Assembly: GCF_036785885.1 (NCBI RefSeq)
Contig: NC_092312.1
Span: 19,300,001-19,364,000, forward strand
Source of the DNA: Coffea arabica
Taxonomy: Eukaryota; Streptophyta; Magnoliopsida; Gentianales; Rubiaceae
Reading direction: 5' to 3'
Length of the DNA: 64,000 bases
Shown: piece after piece, positions 1,066 to 37,146 of the stretch
Layout of the letters: every line of letters begins with the position of its first letter
Position numbering within the stretch: the stretch's first letter is position 1
Made by a program: the position numbers and the translations under genes
The notes under the pieces: generated by a model
Database searches by the model: none
Told to the model about the DNA's origin: nothing
The model's input: only the letters and a program-made list of their open reading frames with translations

Positions 1066-1762
1066 GTAAGTCCTTTTTCCAACTGTATTAACCTTTTTTA
1101 CTGGTCGGATTTTCCACCTGTTCATTTTTGTCTTGTTTAATCCTTAAATCCTCAATTCTTGATCAGTAAATTCATGAAGTCCTCGTCTTTTTATTTTTAT
1201 TTTTTTTGGGTCTTTTGTCGGAAAAAAAGTGATTCTTGTCCATAAGTTCGAAGTACGTTCGCTTAGCCAGCTTTTCTTAGTACATGAGTGAAACGCTTGT
1301 AGGCTTAACAATAAAGATGGGATTTTTATTTTTTTCCTTTTGTCGAAGTTTCTCTGGTCGATCTTTTCTCCTTATGTCCTACGATTAATTATGAATTGAA
1401 AGTTCAATGATTTCATGGGTTATGTTTCTTTCCTCGATTACTATTACTTACCTGAGTTCTTTGAGCTGTTTCATGGAAATAAAGAAATTAAATAGTGCCA
1501 TGTTGGCTAAATTTCTTTTTTCTTTTTCTTTTTCTTGTTCCCTTTCCTTTTCCTAGTTTTTCTAATTCTTCAGCGTTATACTTCATTTTCATGCACATAA
1601 ATAGGGAAATTCAACTTCCAATGCCATATTAGTTAATGTTCTTTCTTGCTTATATGTGAAAGGCATGCGCACTAGTCTGAGGATCATAAGATTCCATTAT
1701 GTTTATCCCACTCTACTTGAATACTGCTGTTCTTATGTTTGTTGATCATTTATATATTGCAG
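1066..1762 (+). other. Leader intron 1 of the SAC51-like gene
   Basis: A consensus donor (CTTGT|GTAAGT, intron from 1066) and acceptor (TATATATTGCAG, ending 1762) bound a T-rich 697-bp stretch. A long intron in the 5' leader is common in this gene class. Removing it brings the uORF cluster close to the cap. This is inference from splice signals. Confidence 0.55.
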
Positions 1763-1771
1763 GTAACGGGC

Positions 1772-2167
1772 ATGTCGCACTACTGCTGAGGCTATATTGA
1801 TCTCACCTATAAGTGAACAATATGCGGTGGATTAGTTTGTCCATTGATGTGTTTCGTCAAGTTATCTCCTTGAATTTGTATTGTAGGGTTATTCTGTAAA
1901 TGATCTCAGTTGTCCTTATTAAACCAGAATTACCTCTTGATTCTTTTGATCTCGTTTAACAAGATTTCAATGGGGTCCAATCACTTCTCTTTCATTGCTT
2001 CTAATATCTATATGATCAGCTGAGAATTATTTATGGTCTTAAGCAGTTTTAAGTTCATTCCTCTGACACCTCGTCTCTTGCCAGTACATCTTGTAGTTCC
2101 TTCAGATTTGGTACACTCCTCGTTTTCTTATCTTTTCTTTTTTCTTTGGTCCTATCTTTTGTTCTAG
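1772..2167 (+). promoter_or_regulatory. Cluster of short upstream ORFs in the leader
   Basis: Five small ATG-to-stop frames precede the conserved uORF on the presumed mRNA: 1772-1789 (5 aa), 1822-1899 (25 aa), 1900-1959 (19 aa), 1970-2023 (17 aa) and 2033-2167 (44 aa). Their peptides look unconserved, so they probably act by capturing scanning ribosomes and not through the peptide. A further 30-aa frame (2680-2772) ends 9 bases before the main ATG, if that segment is retained in the mRNA. Arabidopsis SAC51 likewise carries several uORFs of which one is conserved. Confidence 0.6.
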
Positions 2168-2232: not shown

Positions 2233-2567
2233 ATGGTGTGCCAAGCAGCAAGCCAGACAAGATTCCGGGCTTTAAAACATGAAAATGGCATAGCAGGGAC
2301 ACCAACCATTGTAGTTAGGGTGATAGCATGCTTTCAACCTTTGCAAAATTGTCAGGTTGGTTCAAGATTGTGTTAGGGTGCTTGCTAATGCGTTTCAAGT
2401 TGTAGTCTCTTTACCCTTTATGTTTACTCTTTGGATTTGTGTTTTCTTAATGTGACAGGTTTTTCTCTGTACTTGATAATGATGGAGAAGTTACTAAATC
2501 CTACTTGTTTCCTTTTGGATTTCTGTAGGCTGAGTACTTCCGTCACTTGCTTAAACCAGTTACGTAG
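2233..2567 (+). CDS. Conserved peptide uORF of the SAC51 class (53 aa, two exons)
   Basis: Exon parts 2233-2355 and 2529-2567 are joined across a 173-bp GT-AG intron (2356-2528). Together they encode 53 aa that begin MVCQAASQTRFRALKHENG, continue with GTPTIVVRVIACFQPLQNCQ and end AEYFRHLLKPVT. This is the deeply conserved peptide found upstream of SAC51/SACL bHLH genes across angiosperms. In Arabidopsis the SAC51 uORF represses main-ORF translation, and thermospermine relieves that repression. Recognition of the peptide is strong. Control by thermospermine in this plant is inferred from the family. The intron falls inside the uORF, so splicing decides whether the conserved C-terminus is made. 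Confidence 0.93.
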
Positions 2568-2781
2568 ATTGATAGTACGTTTTCAATAGTACGTGAGGCT
2601 GGAGTTTGAATATTTTGATTCATTATTTTGGTTTCTAAAAGTGTGGACGTTGAAGATTCATTACAATCAGTTTTCTGGTATGGTTTTTGACATCTTGCTG
2701 CTGTTCATCTCCATTGCCTTTTATTGCTTGGAATTTTCTAAAATCTGGCAATTTTATGTCTCAGATTATTGAATTAGCTGG

Positions 2782-3822
2782 ATGTTTACAGCCTACGATT
2801 TTCAGCATTCTCAGCACCATTATCTGTGGGATTCTCCTCGCTCAAATGACAGTACTGCTGTTCCAGATACAGGGACTTCAGCTTTTGGGCTTCTTCATTT
2901 TAAAACGGACCAACTTGATGGAGTTCGGGGACCTTTCCAATGGTTGCCTCCTCAAAAGGAGAGCTCGTCTCCCACAGCAGCTCCACATTTTGAAGAATCT
3001 CAACGTGCTTTTGGTCATGGACATGGTGTCGAACCTACATTCAAGGATGTATCTGCATCCGCTCATAAGAAGTTTCTCATTTTTGATCAATCTGGGGATC
3101 AAGTTAGATTGATCTCGAGATCTTTTCGTTCACCTTACCAAGATCAGATTATCATGCCCATGACACCAGTTGATTTTCACGATTTGCAAGGTGAAGCAGG
3201 ACAATCACAGATAATGAAGCCTCCTCCGCATACTGAGCACCATCCGCATACTGAGCACCATGTAAAGAGTGAAGGAGGTGACATGCGTGAGGACACAGAA
3301 GAAATCAATGCGTTGCTCTACTCTGATAGCTTCCCTGGGAATGATGATGATGTTGATGGTGAAGATGATGACCTGACTAGCACCGGGCATTCACCTTTTA
3401 CAATCATAGGTGGCATCGAGATGCATGAGAAGGTTTGGGAACTTACTGAGGAAGTTGGTAGCACTGATGGTTCAACTAAAAGGCATAAATTGCTTGATGG
3501 TGGTTACAAGAAATCATCGTTAGTGGACACTGCAGATCCATTGAAATTGGCTAAATTTTGCAATGATGATAACCATGTGGAGACAAATTGTGCCAAAGGT
3601 GGGGACCTCAATGAGGAGATGGACTCCAATATCAACACAACGCAAAAGCGGGCCAAAATTTGCAAGACGTTGAGAATTCTTGAAAGTATAGTTCCTGGAG
3701 CAGAGAATAAAGATCCAATCTTGATCATTGATGATGCAATAAATTACTTGATATCATTGAGGGAGAAAGCTGAAGCTTTGGGGCTTGGCCACCCTGAAGT
3801 GCAGTGCTCCCGTCAACAGTAG
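2782..3822 (+). CDS. SAC51-like atypical bHLH transcription regulator (bHLH143/145 type)
   Basis: The product is a 346-aa nuclear regulator of the SAC51/SACL group, which promotes vascular and stem growth downstream of thermospermine in Arabidopsis. The HLH lies at the C-terminus (about residues 286-335): KRAKICKTLRILESIVPG forms helix 1, the loop is short, and DDAINYLISLREKAEALG forms helix 2. The basic part lacks the usual His-Glu-Arg DNA contacts, which suggests a dimerising or non-canonical factor. The middle carries an acidic stretch (GNDDDVDGEDDD). The conserved SAC51 uORF upstream makes the assignment firm. The start at 2782 opens the frame with MFTAYDF. An extra intron between 2568 and 2781 cannot be excluded, but it would not change the HLH. 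Confidence 0.9.
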   Translation: MFTAYDFQHSQHHYLWDSPRSNDSTAVPDTGTSAFGLLHFKTDQLDGVRGPFQWLPPQKESSSPTAAPHFEESQRAFGHGHGVEPTFKDVSASAHKKFLIFDQSGDQVRLISRSFRSPYQDQIIMPMTPVDFHDLQGEAGQSQIMKPPPHTEHHPHTEHHVKSEGGDMREDTEEINALLYSDSFPGNDDDVDGEDDDLTSTGHSPFTIIGGIEMHEKVWELTEEVGSTDGSTKRHKLLDGGYKKSSLVDTADPLKLAKFCNDDNHVETNCAKGGDLNEEMDSNINTTQKRAKICKTLRILESIVPGAENKDPILIIDDAINYLISLREKAEALGLGHPEVQCSRQQ

Positions 3823-6284: not shown

Positions 6285-9100
6285 TCAAGAAACGGAATTT
6301 CTCCACCTTCTAGGTGCCTTTTTAGGTTGTTCTGGATTCGAAATCTGGGGTCCATCATCATGGTTTTCCAAATTTGACATCTTGGTGAGCTTGCCTAGCT
6401 TTTTCCATCCTGAGGTCCATGCGAAAGTTTGCTTTGGCTTAGCCATCTTATCGAACTGTCTCTGTAAGGTTTCAAAGTCGTTTTGGAGTTCCAAGTACTT
6501 AGCCTTGACTGTTTCAAGCTCAAACTTGAGAGTGTTGATGTCCTTCTTGGCAGTTGCCCATCCTTCTTGAAATGACTGTGGCGTCCCTTCAAGCAATGTC
6601 TTACGGGTTGACACCATTGGGTGGTAGTGGGATTCTCCAGCTTCCTTGAGGGAGCTACTAGCTATTGCATTGCTTATCTTCACCTGTTCAGAGAAGAGAA
6701 CTTGCACTACTACTCTTAGAGGAAGCCGTTCATTCTGAGCAGCATGCATGCATGCATCAATTGAGAGCTTCTGGCAATCCATTACACGGCAAAGCCTCTT
6801 CCTTTCATGCTCTGATAGTGTTGGATGGGCCTATCAACTCTTCAATGCGTTAGATTCTAAGTAAACTTGGATGAGCTTCATTATATGCAATATTTGAAGC
6901 AATAAATGTAAACGGCATATTGAGCATTATTATGAAGGCACATAGTGACTCGTTCATAACTTCTAATTTTGTGTTGTAAATTTTTCATCTGAAATTCTTC
7001 TCTTTGATCTTCACAATGCATAATAAATATCGACGTTTGTTTTAACTTAGAATTTAAAGATTTTGCAACTATTCTCTGGCCCTGTCTTCCTTCTATACTT
7101 ATCCATTTAACATAATTCTTAACGGATGCATGCTTTATAAAAAGACCATATCACACAAATATTTTATTTTGAGGAGCTCGTCAGCTCGAGGACCAACCTG
7201 TTTTAACACCATATATTGGTGATGAACAGATATCCTCACAGAAAATCAATGAAAAATATAGTTACTTTAGAAAATCGCGAAAATTAAATTTCAATTACCT
7301 TCAGGTAGGAATCAACAGCTCTATATAGTCCATCATCACAGGTTCTTGCTGAATCAGGTAGAGCTTCTGCCAAGACCTGAAATTTCGTTAGGGAGAGATT
7401 TCTATCTCTGGACACCTCTGTTAGATAACTGTCAACCAGCCTTGCCACTCTCATCTTAGCATTTGGATTTGTACCCCTTTGGGGTGCTTCAGCAAATGAT
7501 TGTCTGCTAGGACTTGAACTTTCTGTCTGCTCTTGGACAAGGAAATGCTCCAGTAGTCTTTGAACTAGATCAACATCGTATAATGTTTCACTCTTGTTGT
7601 ATGAAGGAATGAGAAGATCTGCCAATGTAGCCTGTTCAAACTGCATGCCTACCCTCTTTTCCAATTCAGTAACCAGAGCAGCAGCTACTTTCAACAAGTT
7701 TGCCATTCTCAACAGTCGAAGAAGGAAGCTACAGGAAACACTGTCCTTCTGGGGAGGTATTAAGCTAATAAGGCTCTCAATAATCATTCTTTGATCCTTA
7801 GCCTGAACAGTTGGTATATCTTCTTTTGTCCCTGCTACAATCATATGGAGCCCCCCTTTCCAACTTCTGTTTATGTCATTAGCGTGGCTGTAATTGCTTC
7901 CCTCATCAGCTGCTGCTGATCCCTCCGTTATTAGTCCTGGAAGCCATTTAGCTGCGTAATGCATTATTGCAGCTCCAATTAGTTCATGTCTCATCCCCTT
8001 TACCTTAATAGCAGTAATAACACGTACAAAGTGATCAATCCTGAGAATCGAAACATCTTCAAACCACCAATCAGGTGGCACTTGTTGGTTTCTGCTTGGA
8101 CTGGAATCCTTCATTTCATTCCAACTAGGGCTAGATACTTTTGGGGGCCTCCCTGTATATTGCCATCTTATTCCTTTTGGATTAGCACAAGCTTTCCAGG
8201 CAATGGACTCGCTGCATCTTCTGACAATTTGAAGGTTCTCTGCCCATGGCGACAGCTTCTCACTATTTTTAAGTACTAGTATAGAATCTCTCCATGATGA
8301 CAAAACCACGTAGCTGAGAAAAGCTTCTGTCTTGAATATTAGATTGCCTTCTTCTAAGTCCTCTGTCATTTCCAGGTACTCTGCTGCACATCTAAGGCCA
8401 GAGATATTGTTTGCTGTCAGATCAACAGCAATCCCATAGCAAAATTTTGCTGCAAGCTCAAAAGCCTCAGGTCCACCTGGGAGGTCATCTAAAACTATCT
8501 TGTTCAGGTCTTCCCGTGATTCATATATGATTCTGTTCAACTTGCCACTTCTAGAAAGCAGAGGATACTTGAGAGACGAGAGAAAGAATTAGTATATCAT
8601 CTAACCCCAACCCTTTTACAACCGTTATTAGTAATTCTATGTACACAAGTTGAGAAATGAGAAAAATGTTAGAATAGGATGGCAGCTACCTTATGTAAAT
8701 GGAAATTAACATCTCCAATTTGAACTAAAAAGTCACTTGGGATATCAGTTGCAACATACCTATTTACAGGACAAGCACACCAAACATTATAAGTAACTTG
8801 CTTTAACATTAATGATGATATTGCAAGAAAGAGATACGAGGTTCACCACAGAAAGTTTACGCTTTCAATTTATGCATCTTCTCCTAAACATACTCACTCA
8901 CTCGAGGCTTTCACAGGATGATTAACTTGAAGATGAAAATGCAAAAATAAAGATCCAAGCAATGCTGAACAAATGAGAGAAACATACCAAGACTGGCCTC
9001 TTTGCTCAAAACCATCGGTTTTAAGTCCATGCTTGCTTATGCTGAGAACTCCATTGCTGTAATCTCGCCCTCCTCCGGTCTCGCTTTCCGCGTCCCACAT
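6285..9100 (-). CDS. NPH3: NPH3, phototropin-1 interacting BTB/NPH3 protein (665 aa)
   Basis: Four exons: 9100-8988, 8759-8690, 8567-7299 and 6830-6285, all bounded by GT-AG introns and in phase. NPH3 is the plasma-membrane partner of the blue-light receptor phot1 and is needed for phototropism; it also acts as a CUL3 substrate adaptor. The N-terminus MWDAESE...KTDGFEQRGQSW is that of true NPH3 and not its paralogues. A BTB fold spans about residues 40-160, the NPH3 domain starts at DWWFEDVS (about 227), and a coiled coil covers about 581-613. The protein ends RRWRNSVS. The antepenultimate Ser663 matches the Arabidopsis residue that phot1 phosphorylates to recruit 14-3-3. It is about 80 aa shorter than the Arabidopsis protein (745 aa), mainly through loss of Gly/Asn-rich linkers. 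No lesion was seen. Confidence 0.95.
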
Positions 9101-13659: not shown

Positions 13660-14260
13660 TGTTTTGTAAATAAAGATGCATTAAAATAAAGTCAAGTCAA
13701 CAGAGTGCAAATCAAAGTACAGTTATCCGTGGGGTGGTAACCCCCTTTAAGTCTTGCAAAAGTAAGGGAAGTACAAAATTAGGACATAATTCAAAAAAAG
13801 TGAAGTCTTAAGTGTTGCTTCTTCCCCAGTTGACAAGAATGTCTGCACATTTGTTTGCTTCTCTATAATTATGGTGAAAACATACTTTCCGGAATGTAGT
13901 CAATAGCTCCCTGCAATCAAGAATAATAGGCGAAAGTTCATGAGAAATAAGATTATTTGACTTGCACAAGGAGATGATAATGGCAGAGTCCATCTCCACT
14001 TCGAGAGAGTGGATGTTGAGGTTTTTTGCAAGCTGTAAGCCTTCTCTAAGAGCCCAGCATTCAGCAGAAGGAACTGAATAGAAGCCTAAATTTCTTGCAA
14101 AACCTGCAATCCATAACCCATTTGAGTCAGGAATTATGCCGCTAGCTCGTGCCTGGTTTGTTGGTCCAGAGACTGAACCATCAGTGTCATGGAGGTCTAG
14201 GAAGAATCTCTTCGAGATTGAATGTACATAATTGACCGAGTTGAATATTTTCATGCACAA
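13660..14260 (-). mobile_element. 5'-truncated LINE 3' end with RNase H-like domain
   Basis: The frame 14260-13808 (-) encodes a plant RVT_3/RNase H-like domain. Visible parts are the TDGSVSGPTNQARASGII strand with its Asp, DSNGLWIAGFARNLG, AECWALREGLQLA with the catalytic-type Glu, and VEMDSAIIISLCK with an Asp, then a C-terminal YREANKCADILVNWG. This matches the tail of ORF2 in plant LINEs and the 'putative ribonuclease H protein' relatives. Reverse transcriptase and endonuclease are absent upstream. The downstream 13660-13807 stretch resembles a LINE 3' tail. It is a dead 5'-truncated copy. Confidence 0.75.
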
Positions 14261-14623
14261 GAATACTAGATTATCTAATAAAAAAAGATTGAAAAATCAA
14301 CACAAACCTCCCTTATTTCTTTTCTATTGCAATTTCTGGATTATTATATGATGATTTTTTAACTGTCCATATATAAAAAAGAAATTTAAACTAGAAACGA
14401 CATCTGTTATGTCAATGACACCAAAGGGATATTAAATGAATGGAATTGGGTATGGATGGAATAAAATGAAATGAAATATAACCACTTTGAGTTTTTCTCT
14501 GAAATGAGGCATGGAAAGAGCCATTACGAAGAAGTTTTGGGGGTTACAAAGAAAGTTTCTAACTCATATTGGTCATGGGTTGAGAACAGGAATTGAACTC
14601 TATGAAATCTAATCTCCCATTAT

Positions 14624-14695
14624 TCCTTAGTAGTTCAGTGGTAGAGCGATCAGCTGTTAACTGATTAGTCGTAGGTTCGAATCTTATTTGGAAAG
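14624..14695 (+). pseudogene. Decayed plastid-type tRNA-Asn(GUU) copy in the nucleus
   Basis: The 72-nt stretch follows plastid trnN-GUU along its whole length. It has the D-arm AGTTCAGTGGTAGAGCG, the anticodon loop around CTGTTAACTGA with GTT, and the T-arm GTAGGTTCGAATCTTAT. Differences from the plastid gene are mainly C-to-T or G-to-A transitions, as expected for a methylated nuclear plastid insertion. The acceptor stem has lost pairs, so it is unlikely to be functional. The flanks may be plastid-derived too, but this was not established. Confidence 0.8.
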
Positions 14696-18594: not shown

Positions 18595-21500
18595 CTCCTC
18601 CTTGGCACTTTTACTGCAGATCCCCAACTGTCTTCTTAGGCATTCAAACCTTGTTTTGGACAAGGCCTTCGTAAAAATATATGCAATCTGATAATCAGTC
18701 TTGCAATGAACTAGAACAATTTCTTCATTCTTTTGAACTTATCGAAGAAAATAATATTTAATTTTGAAGTGCTTAGTCTTCCCATGAAACATTGGATTGT
18801 TGAAAATAGCAATAGCAGCTTCATTATCAACAAAAATTTGAGTAGTTTCTTGTTGAACTTGATTTAGATCAGTTAACAATTTCCTAAGCCATAAGGCTTG
18901 ATTAACAGCAGCCGTAGCATCAACATATTCTGCCTAAGCGGTAGATTGGGCTACCACATCTTGCTTCTTAGAATTCCATGAAAAACATTCAGAACCCAGG
19001 TTGAACAAGTATTCAGAAGTGCTCCTCATATCACCATATGAAATAGCCCAGTCACTATCTGAATAGTCATGTAACTCCAATTTTTCTGATTTTTTGAAAC
19101 AAACTCCAAAGTCAGCAGTGCCTTTGACATACCTGAGCACTCTTTTTGCAGCTTTGAAATGCAACTCACTTGCACAATGCATAAATGTAGACAGTAAACT
19201 CACAGCATACATAATATCAGGCCTTGTTGCTGTAAGATATATCAAACAACCTACAAGACTTCTGTATAGGCCTTTATCAACTTTGGCAGCTCCATCATTT
19301 TTACTAAACTTCTCGTTCTCCATTAATGGAATGCTAATTGATTTGCAACTTTCCATATTAAACTTTTTCAACACATCTCTTGCATATTTGTGCTGACTTA
19401 TGAAGATTTCTTGTTGAGATTGAATAACCTCTATGCCAAGAAAATAGGACATCTCTCCCAAGTCTGTCATTTCAAAGACTTGCTTCATTTGCTCCTTAAA
19501 CTGATTTATCAAGATTGGCTTACTTCCTGTGACAAGCAAATCATCAACGTATAGTGAAATAACAATTATATCATCATTGACAATTTTTACATAAAGAGTT
19601 GATTCACTCAAACTCTTCTTAAATCCAATCTTCAGAAGATGATCATCAATCCTGCTGTACCAGGCTCTTGGTGCCTGTTTTAGGCCATATAGCGCCTTGT
19701 GAAGTAGGTACACCTTGTCTTCTTGACCTTTCACTGCAAATCCTTGAGGTTGCTCCACAAAGATCTCCTCCTCCAAGTAGCCATTTAAAAATGTTGACTT
19801 GACGTCAAGTTGATAAACTCTCCAGTCTTTTTGAGATGCAAGTGCTAGGATCAACTTGATGGTGTCAAATCTTGCTACTGGTGCAAATGTATCCGAGAAA
19901 TTCACTCCAAATTGTTGAGCATATCCCTTGACTACCAACTTTGCCTTGTGCTTGTTGATAGAACCATCAGCATTTAATTTGGTTCTAAAAATCCACTTTA
20001 CACTAATGGGTTTCTTGTGAATTGGTCTGTCCACAAGCGCCCAAGTCTGGTTCTTTTCAATCATTCTCAAGTCCTCCTTCATTGTCTCGATCCACTTCAA
20101 GCCTTTGGCAGTTTCTTCATAATCTGCAGGTTCAAGAACTGCAACATTACATTTGTTATAAATGTCAGAGAGTAATTTGGTACCTCTAACTGTAATATGA
20201 TCTATTAATTCATCAATATTCTCCTCCTGCAATTCTTTAGATTCTGATCCCTTGAAATATTCAACTTTGGAATTGATCCAGTCCCATGTTGCGTATTCAT
20301 CAAAATGGATGTCTCTACTGACTATCACTTTTGCAGTCAAAGGTTGATAAACTTTGTAACCTTTGCTACTGCTGCAATAGCCAATTAGAGTCCCAACTTC
20401 TGCCTTTTCGTCAAGCTTGCCTCTCTTTACATCAGGAATATGTGTGTAGCAAATGGAGCCGAACACCTTCAATTTTGTAATGAAGGTTTATATCCAAACC
20501 AAGTTTCAAACGAGGTTCTACCATTCAATAATTTTGTAAACAACATGTTTAAAAGATACACTGCAGTATTGATAGCTTCTACCCAAAACTTCTTTGACAA
20601 TTTTTTTTCAAACAACAAACACCTGGCCATCTCCATGATTGTCCTGTTCTTTCTTTCACTTACTCCATTTTGTTGTGGAGTGTAAGTGACAGTTAATTGA
20701 TGTTCAATTCTTGCATTTTCACAAAACTTGTTGAACTGATTAGAAGTATATTCTGTTCCATTATCTGACCGAATCACTTTAATCATTTTGCCACTTTGAT
20801 TTTCAATCCAATTTTTAAACGTCAAAAAAATAGCAGCAACCTCTGATTTTTGTTTCATGAAATAGACCCAACAATATCTACTGAAGTAATCAATGAAAAC
20901 TATGAAATACCTGCTGCCATTTAATAAAGAAGTTCTCATTGGACCACATACATCTGTGTGAACAAGTTGAAACCTTTCTGAAACTCTCCAAGATTGGTTG
21001 TGAGGAAATGACAATCTGCTTTGTTTTTCCAACTGACAAACTTCACAAACTCCACTTTTATCTTCTATAAAAGGCAAGTCCTGCACAAGACTATTCTTAT
21101 GCATGTAGTTAAATGCAAAATAGTGATAGTGGCCCAATCGTTTATGCCATAATTCAGATTGATCCATTAAACTTGGATATGCACTTGAACCTGCTTTCAA
21201 CCAATTTAGAGAAAAACTTTTTCCATTCATTTTTACTGAAAAAAGTTTACTTCCATTTTGATCATAAATGACGCAGCTCCTATTTTTGAAGACAACAGAA
21301 TAATTTTTCTCAAGTAATTGTCCAACACTCAACAGGTTTTGATTAATTTCAGGTCCATATAAAACATCATAAATTATTTTAGTACCTGAACCATAATTAA
21401 TAATCACATTACCTTTGCCTTTCACCCCAATACAATCTCCATTTCCAATTTTAACTTTGGAAATATATGATTTATCCAATTCTTTGAATATGGACTCATC

Positions 21501-22615
21501 ATATGCCACGTGATGAGTACAGCCACTATCAATTAGCCAAGCTTTACTGGAGATCTTGCTTGTAAAGCAAGTGGCCACAAATAATTACTCCTCGTCTTGT
21601 TGGTCAGCTACTTGAGTATGTTGGTCTCTTCTGTTATTTTTGCATACCTTTTCGACGTGTCCCTTTTGATTGCACGACCTACATTGGACGTCAGGTCTCC
21701 ACCAGCAATATTGTTGTAGATGTGAAGTCTTTTTGCAATGTGGACATTGAGAAAATTTTCCTCTTCTTCTTTCATCTCTGCTAGACTCACCTTCTTTCTT
21801 GCTCTTCTTGTTTCATTGCTGTTTCTTTTCTTTGCCACCTTGTTGATTTTGAATTTTGTCTTTCACCTGAAAAGCACCTTCTACTGCTTCCTTCTTTCAG
21901 ATAGCTCTTCTCTGCTCTTGTGCTTGTAATGCATTGATTAGTTCTGGCAAAGTGATTTGAGACAAATCCCTTGAATCTTCAAGGGAGGAAATCTTGGCCT
22001 CAAACCTTTCAGGTAAGTTCACCAAGACTTTCTCTATAACTCTGTTATCTGGTAATTGTTCTTCAATCAATCTGATTTTGTTCACAACATCTAAGAGTTT
22101 GTCAGAGTACTCTTTGATGTTTTTTGTGTCTTTCATCCTAAGGAGCTCAAACTCTCTCCTAAGGTTCAAAACCTGCATTTGTCTTGTTCTGTCATTGTCT
22201 TGAAAAGCCACTTTGAGAGTATCCCAAACTTCCTTTGCAGTTTCACAAGTCATAATATTTGTGAATATTGCATCAGAAACTGCTGAATGAATACACGTCA
22301 TGGCTTTTGATCTCCTTTTGATTGCATCTCTATGGGCTCTCATTTCTGCAATAGTTGGATCTTCCGATAATTTAGGAACATGATCTGTCTCCACCACATC
22401 CCAAAGATTATTAGCATCCAAATAGGACTTCATTTTGACAGCCCAGATTTAGTAGTTTTCACCAGTAAAATTTGGAGGATTGGACAAGAAGTTATTTCCT
22501 GACATTTTGATGTTGAAGGGTTAAGTGTATAATTTTATAGTGAAAAGGATTTGTCACCAAGTTCACTCACTCTCAAAAAAACATGCCCTTAAGATTTAGG
22601 CTCTTGATACCACTT

Positions 22616-23285: not shown

Positions 23286-25944
23286 TCATAATTGCAAAGG
23301 GCATCCACTAACAATAGTAGTTTTGGTGTTGGCGCTGTTCTTCTTCATTAATGAGGCTAATTCCTCCATCTTCCTCATCTTGACATCGTCGAGAACATTT
23401 CTAGCCCATTCGGAAAAGTAGGTCTGGTTATGGCCGATTAGGCCACTCTTAAAGATGGACATGCAGCGCCTGTCATCTTCGGGATAGGGACATTTTTCGC
23501 CATCAGGGTCTCGCCATGCGCCCTGGTGCTTCATCCCTGACCAGCTAGCAATCCAGTGGTAGACGTATTGCCCTACTCCAGCAAGTTTTAGCCATCCTTT
23601 GGGGAAGAATTCCAAGACGCTGCTGTTTCTATCCATCAAGAACATGTTCGTTAATTGTGCCCCATGTGGAGAGATTAAAATGTCTGTTGAACTCATCAGT
23701 TTCACCTGAACAAAGAAGGAAAAAAATTTTAGAATTTGGCTTTACAAGTATCATCATCAACACTGATCATGAGAAATTACAAAATTGAAGTCTGGCTTCG
23801 TCTAACAAAATTAATAATTTGGTAAAGGGATCACTTATTTTTACATTTCCTTTGCTTTCGGATGGGGTAGCCAACCGCATGTGAGGGGGGAGTAACTTCA
23901 AAACTAATCAAATGGGATTACTCTGCATTGGAAATGAAGACATTACCAGCGATTTACAGCAGGGTTGACCATGTATACATGAATACTTTGATTGTCAATT
24001 AACGCAATACTACCAAGAGAAGGACGTGGACACCTGAATTTTGGTAAACAAGAGGTGATCCATATATTCCAATTGGGCACTTGAGATCCTCGGTGACATG
24101 TTTTCTATGCCAACCCAATGCCACCAATAGTATTGTGCCAAGTGTCATGTTATTATTTATCCTTGTGTTAAATCAAGCCAAATTAAATTATTAGAAAATT
24201 AAAATATAAATAATAACATGACACTTGGCACAACATTATTGGTGGCATTGGGTTGGCATAGAAAATATGTCACCGAGGATCTCAAGTGCCAATTGGGACT
24301 ACTTTCAGCCAAGGCGATCAAATATTTCAAAGAGATTCCTTTTTTTGTCTTTTTAAATATGGATAATGACTGGAAAAACCAACACATGCCAAGCAAGGAA
24401 AGAAAGTCGAACCACGTACCAAGATCCCCACATAGTCCCACCTTCACCTAATTATTTTCCACCGTTACTCCACTACACTATAGTAAGCATTATGTTGGAT
24501 TCGGCAGGTTCGCATTATTCCGTAGACTACTAGCATCAAACAAGTATTAACTTCCCAAAAATTGCATGCAGCTCCATGGAAAATGACAAGGATGAACCAT
24601 TTTTTTTCTTTTTCGGATTGCCAAGTTAAAATGAATGGGGATCAAAATTGTAGCCTTAGATACATAAAAATGCAAAACGAACGACGCTATCACCTTGCTC
24701 GCAACAAAAGAATAGAATTTAACGCAAAATTTAAACTAAGAATGCATACATAGACCGACCTGCTCACAGAATGTGAGATTATAGGAATAAGCAACCCTGA
24801 ATCGGCAGGCCTCAACCATGTTGCATTCCTTCTCAAAGATGGCAATAACAGCAGAAGGATTCCTGAATGATCTAGCTCCAGTCCTCATGAACATAGTCAT
24901 TCCAATCACCGGTACACCCGCCTTTTCATCAGCCTCGGCATTCATCCCCTCTATGCTCACGTTGCAGTAAATCCTAGCCTTGCACCTCAGCAGATCATAC
25001 ACCTCAATTCTCCTCTGCCTCGACATCCCACCTTCATTGTGTCTCATCACCACCGCTTCCTCAAAACAAAATGGATTTTCATCATCATCGTCATCATTAT
25101 TACCATGATCATCAGGCCCTCCTACCTCCTGATCATGAGTAAACCCTTCAACATAAAGCGGTTCGCCGAACGTAGCTTCCATTAAAGCCCTCAACCAGGG
25201 CCCCATTTTCATCCTCAGCTCACCCCAGTGGTACAAAACCCACCGCGTCGGCGCTGCACAACCGTTCTTGATATGCCACGCTACGAATGGCACCATGGCC
25301 GAGAGGCCGTGCCAAATGTTGTCGTAGTTGTAGTGGTTGTACGAGACGAAGGTGAGCCCTTTCAGGAGGGTGGCATTGTGGGGTAGAGTATCAGGCCATG
25401 CAAGCGCATAGGAATTCCATGCACCCTCATGTGTATCTCGACCTTTGAGGCATAAAAGTCTTCCTTTTGATGCCTCTGATGGGAATTGTTGGTACTGGAC
25501 TTCACCTTCCTCGTGTGTATCGTACATGGAGCTCATGAACCACGTGTGGCCTTGCTGGGCCGAGCTCGTGTAACGCAAGTCCTTTAGCGGGAGGAAAGTG
25601 ACCGCGTCACGAAGCTTCGAGGCCGTGGATTCGAGATCTTTGGCGCAGTATTGCTTGGCTAAAGTTGATAAGTTTGTGTTGTTGATTACATTTTGCCATC
25701 TGCTCATGAATGTCCACGAATTTGTAGTCGGGGGCAGTGATGGGATCTGCAAGGGTTGGATTTGGAAGAGAATGAGGAGGAAGGTGAAGGTGACTAGGAA
25801 GTAAAGAGAGAGCTTTGGTGAGTAGTGAAGAAATTGTGAGATTTTACTGCTACTACTTCGGGTATGTTGCTTTGAGTAACGAGGTTTGTTGTTTAGGTTG
25901 GAGCTGGCGATTCTTTCTGGTTCTGAGGTTACTCCCTTAGCCAT
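23286..25944 (-). CDS. GT61-family glycosyltransferase, Golgi type II membrane protein (534 aa)
   Basis: Two exons, 25944-24760 and 23705-23286, are joined over a 1054-bp GT-AG intron (24759-23706). GT61 enzymes of this plant clade add pentose or GlcNAc-type residues to cell-wall xylan or to glycoproteins in the Golgi. The substrate here cannot be read from sequence. A basic, Ser-rich cytosolic tail (residues 1-43) precedes one transmembrane anchor (about 45-63). The catalytic region carries the family blocks GLTFVSYNHYNYDNIWHGLS, VLYHWGELRMKMGPWL and, in exon 2, ILISPHGAQLTNMFLM, the signature GT61 segment. An Asp-rich insert lies just before CFEEAVVMRH. Close annotations in other plants are usually 'protein O-linked-mannose GlcNAc transferase 2-like'. 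The start at 25944 gives the expected tail plus anchor. No lesion was found. Confidence 0.9.
24068..24297. mobile_element. Hairpin MITE in the GT61 intron
   Basis: Two inverted arms of about 92 bp (about 24068-24160 and 24206-24297) flank a loop of about 45 bp. The left arm carries GCACTTGAGATCCTCGGTGA and the right arm carries its complement TCACCGAGGATCTCAAGTGC, with only a handful of mismatches along the arms. The DNA would fold into one long hairpin. It is non-coding and lies fully inside the intron. No target duplication was settled, so the superfamily is open. Confidence 0.85.
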
Positions 25945-27994: not shown

Positions 27995-30900
27995 TCAAAA
28001 TGCAGTACAGAGGCTGCCAGCCTTCATGTTAGAGGAACATTCCGCCTGCATTGGCCTAACAGGGCTCCAAAGCCTGCTTCTCTTTGGCTCTGATATCCTT
28101 ACATGGGAGATTGCCACAGCAAGAATATCAACCAAAGCAGAATCTTCACCTTCAAGCATCTTTTCTGAAGTATAGGAGGAAAAAGTAGGTCTAGAGTCAT
28201 CATAGAGTGAGTTTAAAATTGTTGATCTGTTTCTCTCCGACTCTACTCCAGTATTAGCAGTCAACTGTCTTGAAGTCATATTAACCTGTTTTTTCCTACT
28301 TGGCAAGATCTTATGAGTCTTCATTGTGGATTCAGTGTAGAACAAAATCCATGGATGACCTTCAAAAAATTTTTTAAAAAATGTATTAAAAAAAACGAAT
28401 GTTAATAAATATCTGAAGAGAAACAAGACAGTTGTTTGTTAAACAAACTTCATGGAGACAGATCAGAAATTTAAACAGCTACAGCACCATTAATTTCTTA
28501 TGCTTTGTCCAAGAATGGATTTTAGGTAGCAAACATTAAGTTCATGAGTTTAGAAAGCTCTCTGTGTATTTCTGTTACAAAAACACTACCAGAAACTTGA
28601 TATAGTATGATAGACTGCAACTTCCCTACATGAAAATTTCACATTAATTCAGAAAAAGGCTAGACAATAATACGCTAAGACAAGAAGGAAGTTTCATTAA
28701 GATTAATTCATTTCAATGCTTATATGAATCCACATGTCCCTGTATTAACTATGGCTATGCGGCCGCAAGCAGCAGAGTTGTAAATTGATCAATCAAAAAC
28801 CAGAAATTTCGGAACAATAAAGATAGTTTCATCAAAAAGTAACTCTTTACCATGTTCACATGATTCTAGATGCCCTTAGACATACGCATAGAAAACAACT
28901 TCTTAAACCAAATGACTTATTTCTGTATTGCAAAAGGTTTACATTATCACTCTTTTTCCCCAGATATCAGATTTGCTCATCTCATTATAAAATCTCAAGG
29001 TCTTTTTGGGCATTTATATTACTCACTCAGTACTTCTGCTGCAGTAAATCTATTTGAAACATCCCTTGTCAACATGCAGCTAAGGAGATCACGAGCAGAT
29101 GGAGACACACATTCCCAGACTCCACCAATAAAGTCAAGGTTGTCCTTCTTGATAGCCTCAAAAACGTTTTCCAATGAATCACCTTGAAATGGCAAAAAGC
29201 CAACCAACAGTGCATGAAGGAGGATGCCAGCACTCCAAATATCTACCTTTTCCGAGTAGTCACCCACCAGAATTTCTGGGGCAACATAAGCAGGGCTTCC
29301 AACTACACCAGTCAAGCTCTGACCTATTACAAATAAGGGCCCTCATCAAACCAAGAATATTTTAGAAGTTGAATGCAAGAGACTAGCACTGCAGTGAATC
29401 AAATTCTCATGTAAAGTAAAAATCAACATATATGAAGAGACATAGATGGACAGAAAAATGATATAAATGGCCTACTTAAAGTCTGATTGAATAAACCACT
29501 TATTGGGAGGTCATAAGGAACCTGTCTACTGCTCTAAATAGAGCCAGACTAGAAGAAAATTACCCATGTTTAAGAACTGGATTGCATTGACCAGATTATG
29601 TCTTCAAGCAGGTATAGTCTACAGCAAAGTCAAACGTGCTCTTCTGGCAAATAGATATCTGCAACATAGATTAGCTAATCGTCACCCCACAACATTTAAG
29701 CATTGCAGGAATCTTATTTTTCCGCCTTTTCCAGATCCAAGTTACGAAAATCCATGTTGTTTATCCATCCAGAACTCTTCCATTTAAAGTACCACATTCT
29801 GTGTTTTTGATTAATAATCCCCATTAAGATGAGTACTAGCGACCTTATAATACTTGCTATGTAACGCATCTATTTGTCCTCTTTAAAATTTTTCTCGTCC
29901 ATTGCAACTTCTATTTTTACTACCCTGGATTCTACATACATGGTAACTTAACTATCAGTCTCGTGTTTGCTGTATGTCATGAATCAGCCAAGTTCTTTTG
30001 CTACCACTCTTAAAAGGCCATCTAGTGTTCTTCTCATATCCAACCAGAAAATTCATGCTTATTCAACTTGCAGATATCCAGTATGCTCAGTCGCATATAA
30101 GTATTGACTTTCCTGAACCATTGCAGCTTCGTCAACCAATAGATTTCCACAGACATGATAAATTCTGTGTTTTTCACTACTTCTTAAGCCAGATTTCCAC
30201 ATGCTTTATATACTACCACTTGTCTAAAATCCCCTTACTAATATTCTGATTTCCAACTATAAGGTTCATCCTTATTCACTAGAAACAAAACAAATAATAA
30301 ATAATAGGTTAGCAGATTCAGGCACCAAATCTAATATGAAAGTGGTAGAACTAGAAGAAGAAAGAGCAAATACTGTAAACATTCCACGATTAATCTAGAT
30401 GAGGACTAACATATGATATAGAATAGGCACCAACTATAATCTACTTGTCCACAAAAAATCACAGCGCAAACAAAAAATAAAGAGGAAAACCATGTCTACA
30501 ACAACTTAAGCAACTATAAGTGCAGAAGAAATTGTAATCACCATCCACAATTCTCACAGCCAATCCAAAATCTGCAAGCTTCATCTGTCCAGAGCTTGTA
30601 AGCAGGATGTTCTCAGGCTTTATGTCTCGGTGAACAACACCCATCTCATGGCAATATCTGATGACCAGAATCAATTCCTTAATTAAAATAGCAGCTCGCT
30701 GTTCAGAGTACTGCCCTTCATTGGTCATCTGATCAAGCAACCTTCCTCCTGAGCAAAGCTCCATAACCAGATGAAATGACTCAGCATCCTCGTAAACAGC
30801 CTTTAACGTCACAACACCTGGATGCCCAGAAAGATGCTGCATAATTTCTACCTCACGATGCACAGTCTCCTCCCCCTTCTTCAAAGTCTTGCAAGCAAAC

Positions 30901-31361
30901 TGCTCCCCAGTCACTTTGCTCGTACAAATCATCACATATCCAAATTTCCCATGTCCTATAACTTTCCCTAATTCATATTCCTGGTCAATCTTCTTCTTCC
31001 TCCCCAACTGAGTGGCCGAATCAATGCACCCAATTTTCCTTTTGAGTCCCCTAGCTGGAGGGTCCAGACAAGCACTACCACCACAAGGAGGAGCGGTGAC
31101 CACTCCAGGAACTACATTCAATCCGGCACCAACATCACCTTTCTCTATAAATTCCTTGCACTTCCTCTTCCTCCTTGAGTAATCTTTCAATGACAAATGA
31201 GAGAGAGATATCTCTAGCGAAGTCAGTGACAGTTCTTTTTTCCTAACAACTAAAACCTCCGCCCCTTTTCTCTTCTTTCCCAAATACTCCATGTTGCAAC
31301 CAGAAAAGCCAAACTTACAAGGCTCCCTGGAACCATAAACAGCTACCCCTTGTACAACCAT
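27995..31361 (-). CDS. PEPKR2: PEPKR2-type serine/threonine protein kinase (493 aa)
   Basis: Three exons, 31361-30542, 29323-29027 and 28359-27995, are joined in phase by GT-AG introns of 1218 and 667 bp. The kinase domain (about residues 129-377) is complete: Gly-rich loop GHGKFGYV, Lys158 in FACKTL, catalytic HRDIKPEN at 244-251, DFG at 264-266 and activation-segment VAPEIL. It belongs to the CDPK/PPCK-like superfamily but has no EF hands. A basic N-terminal extension (LGKKRKG, SRRKRKCK) and a Ser-rich C-terminal tail flank the kinase. This layout matches PEPKR2 (phosphoenolpyruvate carboxylase kinase-related kinase 2, about 470 aa in Arabidopsis). Its physiological substrate is not well defined. 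The basic N-terminus could be a nuclear signal (inference). Confidence 0.9.
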
Positions 31362-34193: not shown

Positions 34194-36876
34194 CTATAAT
34201 TCCATCAAATTGTCACACCCCTTTTCTGTCAGAAGCATATGCAGAGTAGCAGCTCTCTCGGTCAACCCAACCTCCACAAAACCCCCAAGAATTCTGTTGC
34301 AGATGGTGCTATCAAAATCTGTAGTTGTCGATTGCTTCCACTGATCAATGATATCTCTCACCTCTTTCAAGTGCCCAAGAATCAAATAGGATGAAATTAT
34401 GCACGCATAGTTTCGACCAATCATTTTTTGCTTCGTCAATATCAAAGACTTCCAAATCTGATCAAGTTTATCTTTGTTTCCTAAGCCTCCATACAGGATA
34501 ATTAGGAAGTCATAAGTTATCCATTCTCTCTGTGTGATACCCTTCTCGCTTTCGACTAGAGAGTTGAAATCACAGTTCACAAGGTGACCTGAGCTAATGT
34601 AAACCTTTACAAGGTTCACATACCTCAACCAACTTTCACTAAAACCAGATTGAATCCCCATTTCATCAAGAATGTGTCTCGCCTCATCAATGTTGAGGCC
34701 CGCAGCAGATGAACTTACTAACAGATTATAAGTAAATAGGTCCGGTGCAACCTTCTGTCGCTTCATTTCTTCTGCAATAAAGGGAATCTTCTCCAGTTGC
34801 CCAACTGACATGTATAGTGTCATCAACTCATTGTAAGTGAGTGCACTCAGAGAAAGGTTTGATTCCTTTATCCTGTCAAAAAGGTCCTCAGCCTTCTCTG
34901 TGAGTTTTGATGCGGCATAAGAGTGCAGAAGAGCAGTATATGTCTCACAAGTTTTTGCAGAAGGAGGAAGACCTTCAAAGTAACGCTCAGCAGCATCGAT
35001 GCCAAAGACTTTGGTCATCAAGTCAATGCAGACAGCATAGTCAGAGTCAGATAGTTCAAACTCGTCATGTGCAACCATCCATTCAGATATCTGCAACATT
35101 ATTTTCAGATGCACGTGAGGATTTACATAGAGGAAAAAAATAAGAATGATGGACAACGCCTATGAAGATGAGCTAAGAATTTTCTTCTCCATGTCTCTGT
35201 GGTTGGATGCCAAACAATGTACCTAAAGCCTTCTCTGATGCCAAGAGACATAAATTACGAGAGATAATTCATGAAAAGCATCCAAGAGTGAGAGAATGTG
35301 CAAAGAAGATGAAATCATCTTAGTCCTAATACCTCAATAATCACAATTCAAAATGAACAACTGAGGCTACAACCACCTAAGATAACATGTTTTTGCAATT
35401 ATGGTGCACAATTACTTTAAGGGAAAAAGGATTTGAAGAACGATATTTTAATGAACTTCAGCCTGTGTGTGGTCTTGCAGTCAGTTTAAAGCAAGAACGA
35501 CAGAGCGACTACTCAGAGTAGTATAAATCATATGACCTAATACGCGAGTTCACATGTAATAACAGTCTAATGTATGGATCTGATAAACAGTATAGCTTTC
35601 CTATTTTCAGAGTTCCCAAAATGAAGAATACACATCAGGCAGATATGCTAAACAAGAAGGCAAAAATAGGACCTTGTGATAAGAATGAACCACTGCCCTA
35701 AAATCAGTCATCTCCTATTGATCATCAAGGAACAAAAAAGTCAGGCAAATTACCCATTAGGTGGAACTTCTGAATGGCACATTATTCCGTCATAAATGAT
35801 TTCTTTAGGGCCTTAAGTTGCTTTTCAATATCAGGGGGAAAAAAAGCCTTGATGAGGTCCTTATCCTGTATTTTTTATAGGTTAAATGGTAAATTGCCTC
35901 TTTGACATTACAATACTGCATGCCTGCCAACTTGAGCTACCTGCTTAACATTCTGTACTATTCACTGGCTCTGAACTTCAATGTAAAAGGTAAAAGTGAA
36001 TTGAGACCAGCTAGAGAAGGCACGAGCAATCCAGTTAAATAAATCCTAAGAAACATCTCAACTTCTACGTTCAACCCCAACCTAATGGTTATACATCTGG
36101 TTCATCGATTGATCGATCTATTAAATGAATATAATGCCAATGGCTTCAACTTTACAGATGGAATTCAAGTGCTCCAGTTGGTTTGTACCTATATGATGCC
36201 AACGCCGCCTTCAAATTCATATCAAATTCCCCAGAATTACTAGCCACCCTTTTCCCATTCAACCAATGGACATCAATCAAACCAAGAAAATAGAAAATCA
36301 AACCCAAAGTTTCTCTCTTTACACGACCAAACAAAAAATGCAGTTTTTTTTTTTTTAAAAAAAAAAAAAAAAGAAAAGAGAAGGGGAAACTTTAGGCAGG
36401 CTATTAAAAAAAGAAGAAGAAAACGGGGGGATGGAACCTCGAGGGCGTGCTTATAGCGCTGAGATTTACGAAGGTCTTTGGAGATTTGACGGAGGTCGGA
36501 GATGGTAATCCTGTTGCCCTCACTAACCCATCTATGGAGGACATTGGTGGCGCTTCTTTTGGGGAGCCTAAGCCTCGTTATTCTACTCTTCAAATCATCA
36601 TTCGTCGTAGTTTCTGAATAAGAATCAGAACCCTTCTCCTCATCTGCTTGATCACATGCTACAACTTCAACTTCGCTTGTAGAAGGAGAAGGAGTAGAGA
36701 AATATCGCATCGCAGTCGTCCTCCGCCTTAGTTTACTGCAGACAAGAAATTTTTTATGGGCTAATTTTTTCAGCAAAAGGGATGGAAAAAGGATGAAAGG
36801 AAACTGAAATACAGATGGAGATGGAAATTGTCAGTTGTTACCGAGCCATAGTGAGGAAGATGGAGCGGGCGGCCAT
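34194..36876 (-). CDS. Mitochondrial-type PPR protein, At2g20710-like (409 aa)
   Basis: Three exons: 36876-36842, 36735-36438 and 35090-34194, separated by introns of 106 and 1347 bp. The N-terminus MAARSIFLTMARKLRRRTTA, followed by MRYFS, is rich in Arg, Ser and Thr with no acidic residues, as in a mitochondrial presequence. Conserved family blocks follow: VLHRWVSEGNRITISDLRQI, EWMVAHDEFELSDSDYAV and KVFGIDAAERYFEGLPPSAK, then P-class PPR repeats such as ETYTALLHSYAASKLTEKAE and LTYNELMTLYMSVGQLEKIP. Members bind organelle RNA and aid its processing; the target is unknown. It stops after TEKGCDNLMEL, about 80 aa short of the usual length of about 490 aa, so the last repeats are missing. Confidence 0.85.
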
Positions 36877-37062: not shown

Positions 37063-37146
37063 TGTCAGAAGTGGGATTTGAACCCATGCCCTCTCACGAG
37101 GACCAGAACTTGAGTCTGGCGCCTTAGACCACTCGGCCATCCTGAC
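37063..37146 (-). tRNA. tRNA-Leu (anticodon CAA), no intron
   Basis: The 84-nt minus-strand gene begins GTCAGGATGGCCGAGTGGTC. The acceptor stem GTCAGGA pairs with TTCTGAC. The anticodon stem is CCAGA/TCTGG with loop CTCAAGT, giving CAA (37110-37112). A long class II variable arm, GTCCTCGTGAGAGGGC, and the T-arm GGGTTCAAATCCC follow. All stems pair and a T-run for Pol III termination lies shortly downstream, so it looks functional. Plant tRNA-Leu(CAA) genes often carry a short intron next to the anticodon; this copy has none. Confidence 0.95.

Follow-up and report, generated by a model that had tools for sequence, protein, structure and literature searches.

How should an intron be read when it divides a conserved upstream open reading frame (uORF)? 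The question is raised by a gene leader in the window, the whole 64,000-nucleotide stretch of Coffea arabica DNA analysed here (NC_092312.1, positions 19,300,001 to 19,364,000). The original prediction saw in this leader a SAC51-class uORF and proposed that splicing of its intron could act as a second layer of control besides thermospermine. The locus reads as an ordinary member of the known HG15-type uORF family with an inherited intron. Very probably it is an HG15.3 uORF of a SAC51-family gene, with an inherited phase-0 intron that is normally removed; its C-terminal AEYFRHLLKPVT most likely stalls ribosomes, and mRNA decay is possible.

The uORF lies on the forward strand and consists of a first coding part of 41 codons (2233–2355, 123 nt) and a last coding part that encodes AEYFRHLLKPVT and ends in TAG (2529–2567, 39 nt including the stop). 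A 173-nt GT-AG intron in phase 0 (2356–2528, forward strand) separates the two, with the borders CAG/GTTGGT ... TTTCTGTAG/G, a GC fraction of 0.35, and a T fraction of 0.46. These coordinates are exact. Joining the two parts gives a 53-aa product, MVCQAASQTRFRALKHENGIAGTPTIVVRVIACFQPLQNCQAEYFRHLLKPVT, followed by a stop; as first proposed, the frame is complete only without the 173-bp intron, and the coordinates and lengths given for it were all correct. The splice itself would join 2355 to 2529. Scored by background donor-site frequencies, the donor of this intron ranked first among 82 GT sites within 600 nt, and its counterpart ranked first in each of the five other copies described below. 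Splicing of 2356–2528 is presumably constitutive. Some retention is plausible because the window donor scores 4.62 on these frequencies, lower than the 6.35 of the donor in the copy called C17.

The main ORF downstream (2782–3822, forward strand) encodes a SAC51-type bHLH protein of 346 aa, which matches Pfam PF23173 (bHLH_SAC51) with 39.9 bits against a cut-off of 28.5 and is therefore placed in the SAC51 family. The related protein of copy C19 shares 38% identity with the window protein across residues 35–335, and that of C17 reaches 26.3 bits against PF23173, under the cut-off of 28.5. The uORF peptide is taken to be like the published HG15.3 peptide. The domain match and the conserved peptide together bear out the SAC51-class assignment.

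The search for relatives covered the plant's own assembly (1.2 Gb, 131 contigs), and paralogs stand in for orthologs throughout. The uORF matched four sites, namely C3 (the window), C4, C19, and C20, all of which carry the first coding part; the main ORF added C17 and C18 as weak matches (E about 6e-4). There are thus at least six copies, and more family members may exist because the genome searches score best candidates only. Near-identical pairs are formed by C3/C4, C19/C20, and C17/C18, which suggests two haplotypes of three genes or, possibly, recent homeologs. In C17 and C18 the uORF was taken from the ATG that gives 48 aa. The C17 frame stays open for 72 more codons upstream and includes an in-frame ATG at −207, which makes the N-terminus of this uORF uncertain; neither the intron position nor the tail in this pair depends on the ATG chosen. 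One scan each of prokaryote contigs and of viral contigs gave 91 and 6 pattern matches, respectively, and no confirmed relative, as expected.

Intron position was to be compared among orthologous genes under the original prediction. Run on paralogs, the comparison found position and phase common to 6/6 copies: in each, a phase-0 intron follows the same CQ codons and the last exon measures 39 nt, with the pattern CAG/GT ... [CT]AG/GCTGA and a last exon encoding AEYFR(H/Q)LLKPVT (H in the window and in C19/C20, Q in C17/C18). The acceptor is TAG in C3/C4 and CAG in the other four copies, and the intron measures 173 and 173 nt in C3/C4, 132 and 132 nt in C19/C20, and 957 and 958 nt in C17/C18. 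Because its position is common to all six copies found, the intron is explained by descent.

The coding parts are conserved as a peptide. Both uORF exons of C4 are identical to those of the window (162/162 nt). Between C3 and C19, 24 of 54 codons differ (stop included), 19 synonymously and 5 non-synonymously, and in the last uORF exon the differences, at 6 codons, are all synonymous. The NG86 estimates over 53 codons are dN 0.063, dS 1.40 (near saturation), and dN/dS 0.045. The uORF peptide upstream of this SAC51-family ORF is thus under purifying selection, as expected of HG15.3. In blastn comparison of the C3 and C19 leaders, blocks at 2225–2357 and 2520–2569 (window coordinates) have their edges 2 nt past the donor, 9 nt before the last exon, and 2 nt past the stop, and the sole block between the C3 and C17 leaders (2524–2567) terminates at the uORF stop. 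The leader blocks correspond to a first uORF, described below, and to both parts of the second, with edges 0–9 nt from splice sites or stops. Among near-identical copies, mismatches occur at 19 of 1262 intron sites (excluding one intron column with a gap) and at 0 of 471 uORF exon sites (Fisher p 0.003). Aligned with each other, the intron bodies of C3 and of C19 score −30, compared with a mean of −52 (sd 10) for mononucleotide shuffles (z about 2.3); this excess similarity may reflect shared splice signals or weak constraint. Conservation among paralogs and the common intron position support the exon model of 2233–2355 and 2529–2567. It is extremely improbable, given purifying selection and an intron position common to three genes, that the two-exon uORF is a chance reading whose second part is absent from the mRNA.

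Among the other parts of the leader, intron 1 (1066–1762, forward strand, GTAAGT ... TTGCAG) is predicted from sequence inspection and a motif search. From 1763 to 2360 the leader contains 11 AUGs, and two of its uORFs are kept in a paralog: the 53-aa split uORF and a first conserved uORF of 25 aa, MRWISLSIDVFRQVISLNLYCRVIL (1822–1899, forward strand), which falls within a blastn block shared with a paralog (1815–1899). The latter differs between C19 and the window by 6 synonymous and 2 non-synonymous codons. This 25-aa uORF (ending CRVIL) also occurs in C19/C20 and, in a more distant form, in C17/C18 (25 aa, also ending RVIL); in C4 an A-to-G change at 1880 would, by codon arithmetic, turn Tyr20 into Cys. 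In the accessible parts of the papers cited here and below, the first uORF of SAC51 is called highly conserved in one (PMC4308196) and not conserved in another (PMC6504692). Leader intron 3 (2678–2764, forward strand, CTG/GTATGG ... TGTCTCAG) is predicted from the best-scoring donor between the uORF stop and the main ATG, again scored by background frequencies.

These parts suggest how the leader would act. Once intron 2356–2528 is spliced out, the 53-aa peptide would be translated, and its C-terminal AEYFRHLLKPVT, next to the stop, would hold the ribosome near 2567. Held ribosomes would allow little bHLH protein to be made, and the exon junction that predicted intron 3 places 110 nt 3' of the uORF stop would favour nonsense-mediated decay. 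Relief by thermospermine would follow from the behaviour of relatives and is doubtful for the window copy. Repression, decay, and any relief are proposed here by analogy. HG15.3 appears in a list of regulators that depend on their peptide sequence (PMC7106846). Premature uORF stops in Arabidopsis, in sac51-d and in sacl2-d1 to d3, raise main-ORF expression or suppress acl5 (PMC6504692, PMC12436307); suppression by the SACL2 uORF stop alleles is partial (PMC12436307), and the newer alleles of SACL1 and SACL3 carry amino-acid substitutions (PMC11913374). By analogy, truncation of the tail should derepress the main ORF.

The intron might instead serve mainly to mark the mRNA: through the exon junctions around the uORF, its translation would be coupled to nonsense-mediated decay, and dividing the peptide would itself have no role. 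Such marking is consistent with the predicted junction downstream of the uORF stop and with the decay reported for SAC51-family mRNAs of Arabidopsis (PMC6504692, PMC3284524, PMC12436307). The 110-nt junction, however, belongs to predicted intron 3 rather than to the uORF intron; the junction of the latter lies inside the uORF, upstream of the stop, and would be cleared by a translating ribosome. For intron 3, C19 has a counterpart at +117/+220, and none is clear in C17. The triggering of decay by plant uORFs is debated (PMC11062462), and upf mutations failed to suppress acl5 (data not shown in PMC4308196). Decay marking as the main role of the uORF intron is accordingly judged unlikely, and an inherited intron within a stalling uORF is the preferred reading.

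If the intron were kept, computed translation gives a 47-aa peptide in the window gene and C4, with VGSRLC in place of AEYFRHLLKPVT; the last 12 conserved residues would be replaced, as the original prediction held. Since the TAG acceptor of the 173-nt intron is in frame with the last uORF exon in C3/C4, reading in frame into the tail is impossible in this pair. In C19/C20 translation of the retained form would continue across the intron and give 97 aa with the tail preserved, and in C17 and C18 it would stop at 82 and 59 aa (from the chosen ATG) with the tail lost. Retention therefore has three outcomes in three genes, which leaves no common outcome for selection to keep. The retained window intron also adds five AUGs (2388, 2420, 2450, 2479, and 2482), of which the last two start a 36/35-aa ORF overlapping the last uORF exon; C4 lacks the AUG at 2388 through a T-to-C change at 2389. 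Because of these gained AUGs, retention need not release the main ORF.

Regulated retention as a true second layer of control, in which a 47-aa peptide without its stalling tail frees the main ORF, has to be weighed against these outcomes. Retention does remove the 12-residue tail, an in-frame TAG acceptor stands directly before the last exon in C3/C4, truncating uORF mutations derepress Arabidopsis SAC51 and SACL2, and leader splicing that adds or removes uORFs has been described for individual plant genes, HCS1 and PIF3 among them (PMC11062462). Yet the paralogs would react differently, five AUGs would be gained, and the intronless cDNA leader of Arabidopsis SAC51 still responds to thermospermine. 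In the titles and passages covered, from a literature that was mainly open-access, retention of a SAC51 uORF intron was not described. A regulated switch at this intron thus has a low probability. What stands of the original interpretation is the SAC51-class uORF, the exon model, and the loss of the tail; splicing as a second layer besides thermospermine is possible but unsupported, given the shared intron, the divergent outcomes of retention, the gained AUGs, the responsive cDNA leader, and the missing internal in-frame AUG of the uORF.

Other functions for the intron sequence were considered. The uORF intron of C19/C20 (132 nt) is a multiple of three in length and stop-free in frame, as an exitron would be. 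Mononucleotide shuffling of this intron, repeated 20,000 times, left frame 0 open in 6.3% of cases; combined with a length divisible by three (one in three), the expectation is about 2% per intron and about 6% for one of three. The C19 and C20 introns differ at two sites, and each difference changes an amino acid of the read-through form, which argues against coding constraint. The exitron is entertained only within the highly speculative proposal given below. Predicted RNA folding of 2300–2600 was no better than that of shuffles (z 0.02; 50/100 shuffles as good), and Rfam at the gathering threshold identified only two tRNAs in the whole window, so no structured RNA switch was seen.

Thermospermine control of the window gene is itself uncertain because the internal in-frame AUG known as uORF6 is missing, as in unresponsive SACL2-type leaders. 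The spliced peptides of the window and C19 have only Met1, and the C17 peptide, counted from the chosen ATG, has methionines at 1, 21, and 32. In the accessible parts of PMC6504692, the four leaders of other species that are named as responding (broccoli SACL1, soybean SACL3, and rice SACL3A and SACL3C) all contain an internal in-frame uORF6, and the SACL2-type leaders tested there lack it and show no thermospermine response. The correlation is imperfect, as a SAC51 leader with a disrupted uORF6 still responded (PMC6504692). In the same source the genomic and cDNA leaders of Arabidopsis SAC51 both give the response, and the sac51-d uORF stop raises expression with the response retained (PMC6504692). 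That splicing of the uORF intron sets the thermospermine sensitivity of SAC51-type leaders is a highly speculative proposal. If it were true, retention in the window gene would delete the stalling tail, and the retained form of C19/C20 (97 aa, with the tail and in-frame AUGs upstream of it) would imitate Arabidopsis SAC51 with its nested uORF6. One candidate factor linked to splicing that could act here is JMJ22 (JMJD6 family); acl5 is suppressed when JMJ22 is lost, and SAC51-family mRNAs then appear to be stabilised (PMC12436307).

Elsewhere in the window, pieces of a Copia-type retrotransposon lie on the reverse strand at 18934–22433, with RVT_2, an integrase core with GAG-pre-integrase, and gag in separate ORFs, and a 148-aa ORF with an RVT_3 (RNase H-like) domain lies at 13808–14254 (reverse strand). 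The two tRNAs are tRNA-Asn (GTT) at 14623–14695 (forward strand) and tRNA-Leu (CAA) at 37063–37146 (reverse strand). Also on the reverse strand are exon(s) of an NPH3-family gene (7284–8369), of a protein kinase (30459–31361), and of a PPR protein (34194–35099). Two further reverse-strand ORFs occupy 23286–25944; the 136-aa one has a sub-threshold match to Glycosyltransferase 61, and the 402-aa one has no Pfam match at E 0.001.

The locus adds a SAC51-family leader from a further plant, with a gene model that is clean and open to checking. Its 53-aa peptide would be missed or truncated by gene finders looking for uninterrupted uORFs. If splicing did change the uORF, a nuclear input would be added to the thermospermine control of xylem growth.

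Several known leaders, as described in the accessible parts of the sources, resemble that of the window gene. The leader of Arabidopsis SAC51, a gene of four exons, is 870 bases long and has three introns and a fourth uORF of 53 aa, and the full CDS lies in exon 4 (PMC4308196); the uORFs are placed in exons 2 and 3 (PMC6504692). Like this uORF4 (HG15.3), the window uORF is a conserved 53-aa frame before a SAC51-type bHLH ORF, and the window gene likewise has three leader introns (the first and third predicted), its whole CDS in the last exon, and small upstream uORFs (PMC4308196). Unlike Arabidopsis SAC51 and SACL1, the window uORF has no second internal in-frame AUG (uORF6), and in this missing AUG lies its likeness to the SACL2-type leaders of Arabidopsis, rice, poplar, and soybean, which have the conserved uORF without an added internal one. 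As in the leaders of HCS1, PIF3, MtHAP2-1, and PHY2, an intron overlaps or contains uORF sequence (PMC11062462, PMC7284334); alternative splicing is observed in those genes, whereas in the window gene it is only possible.
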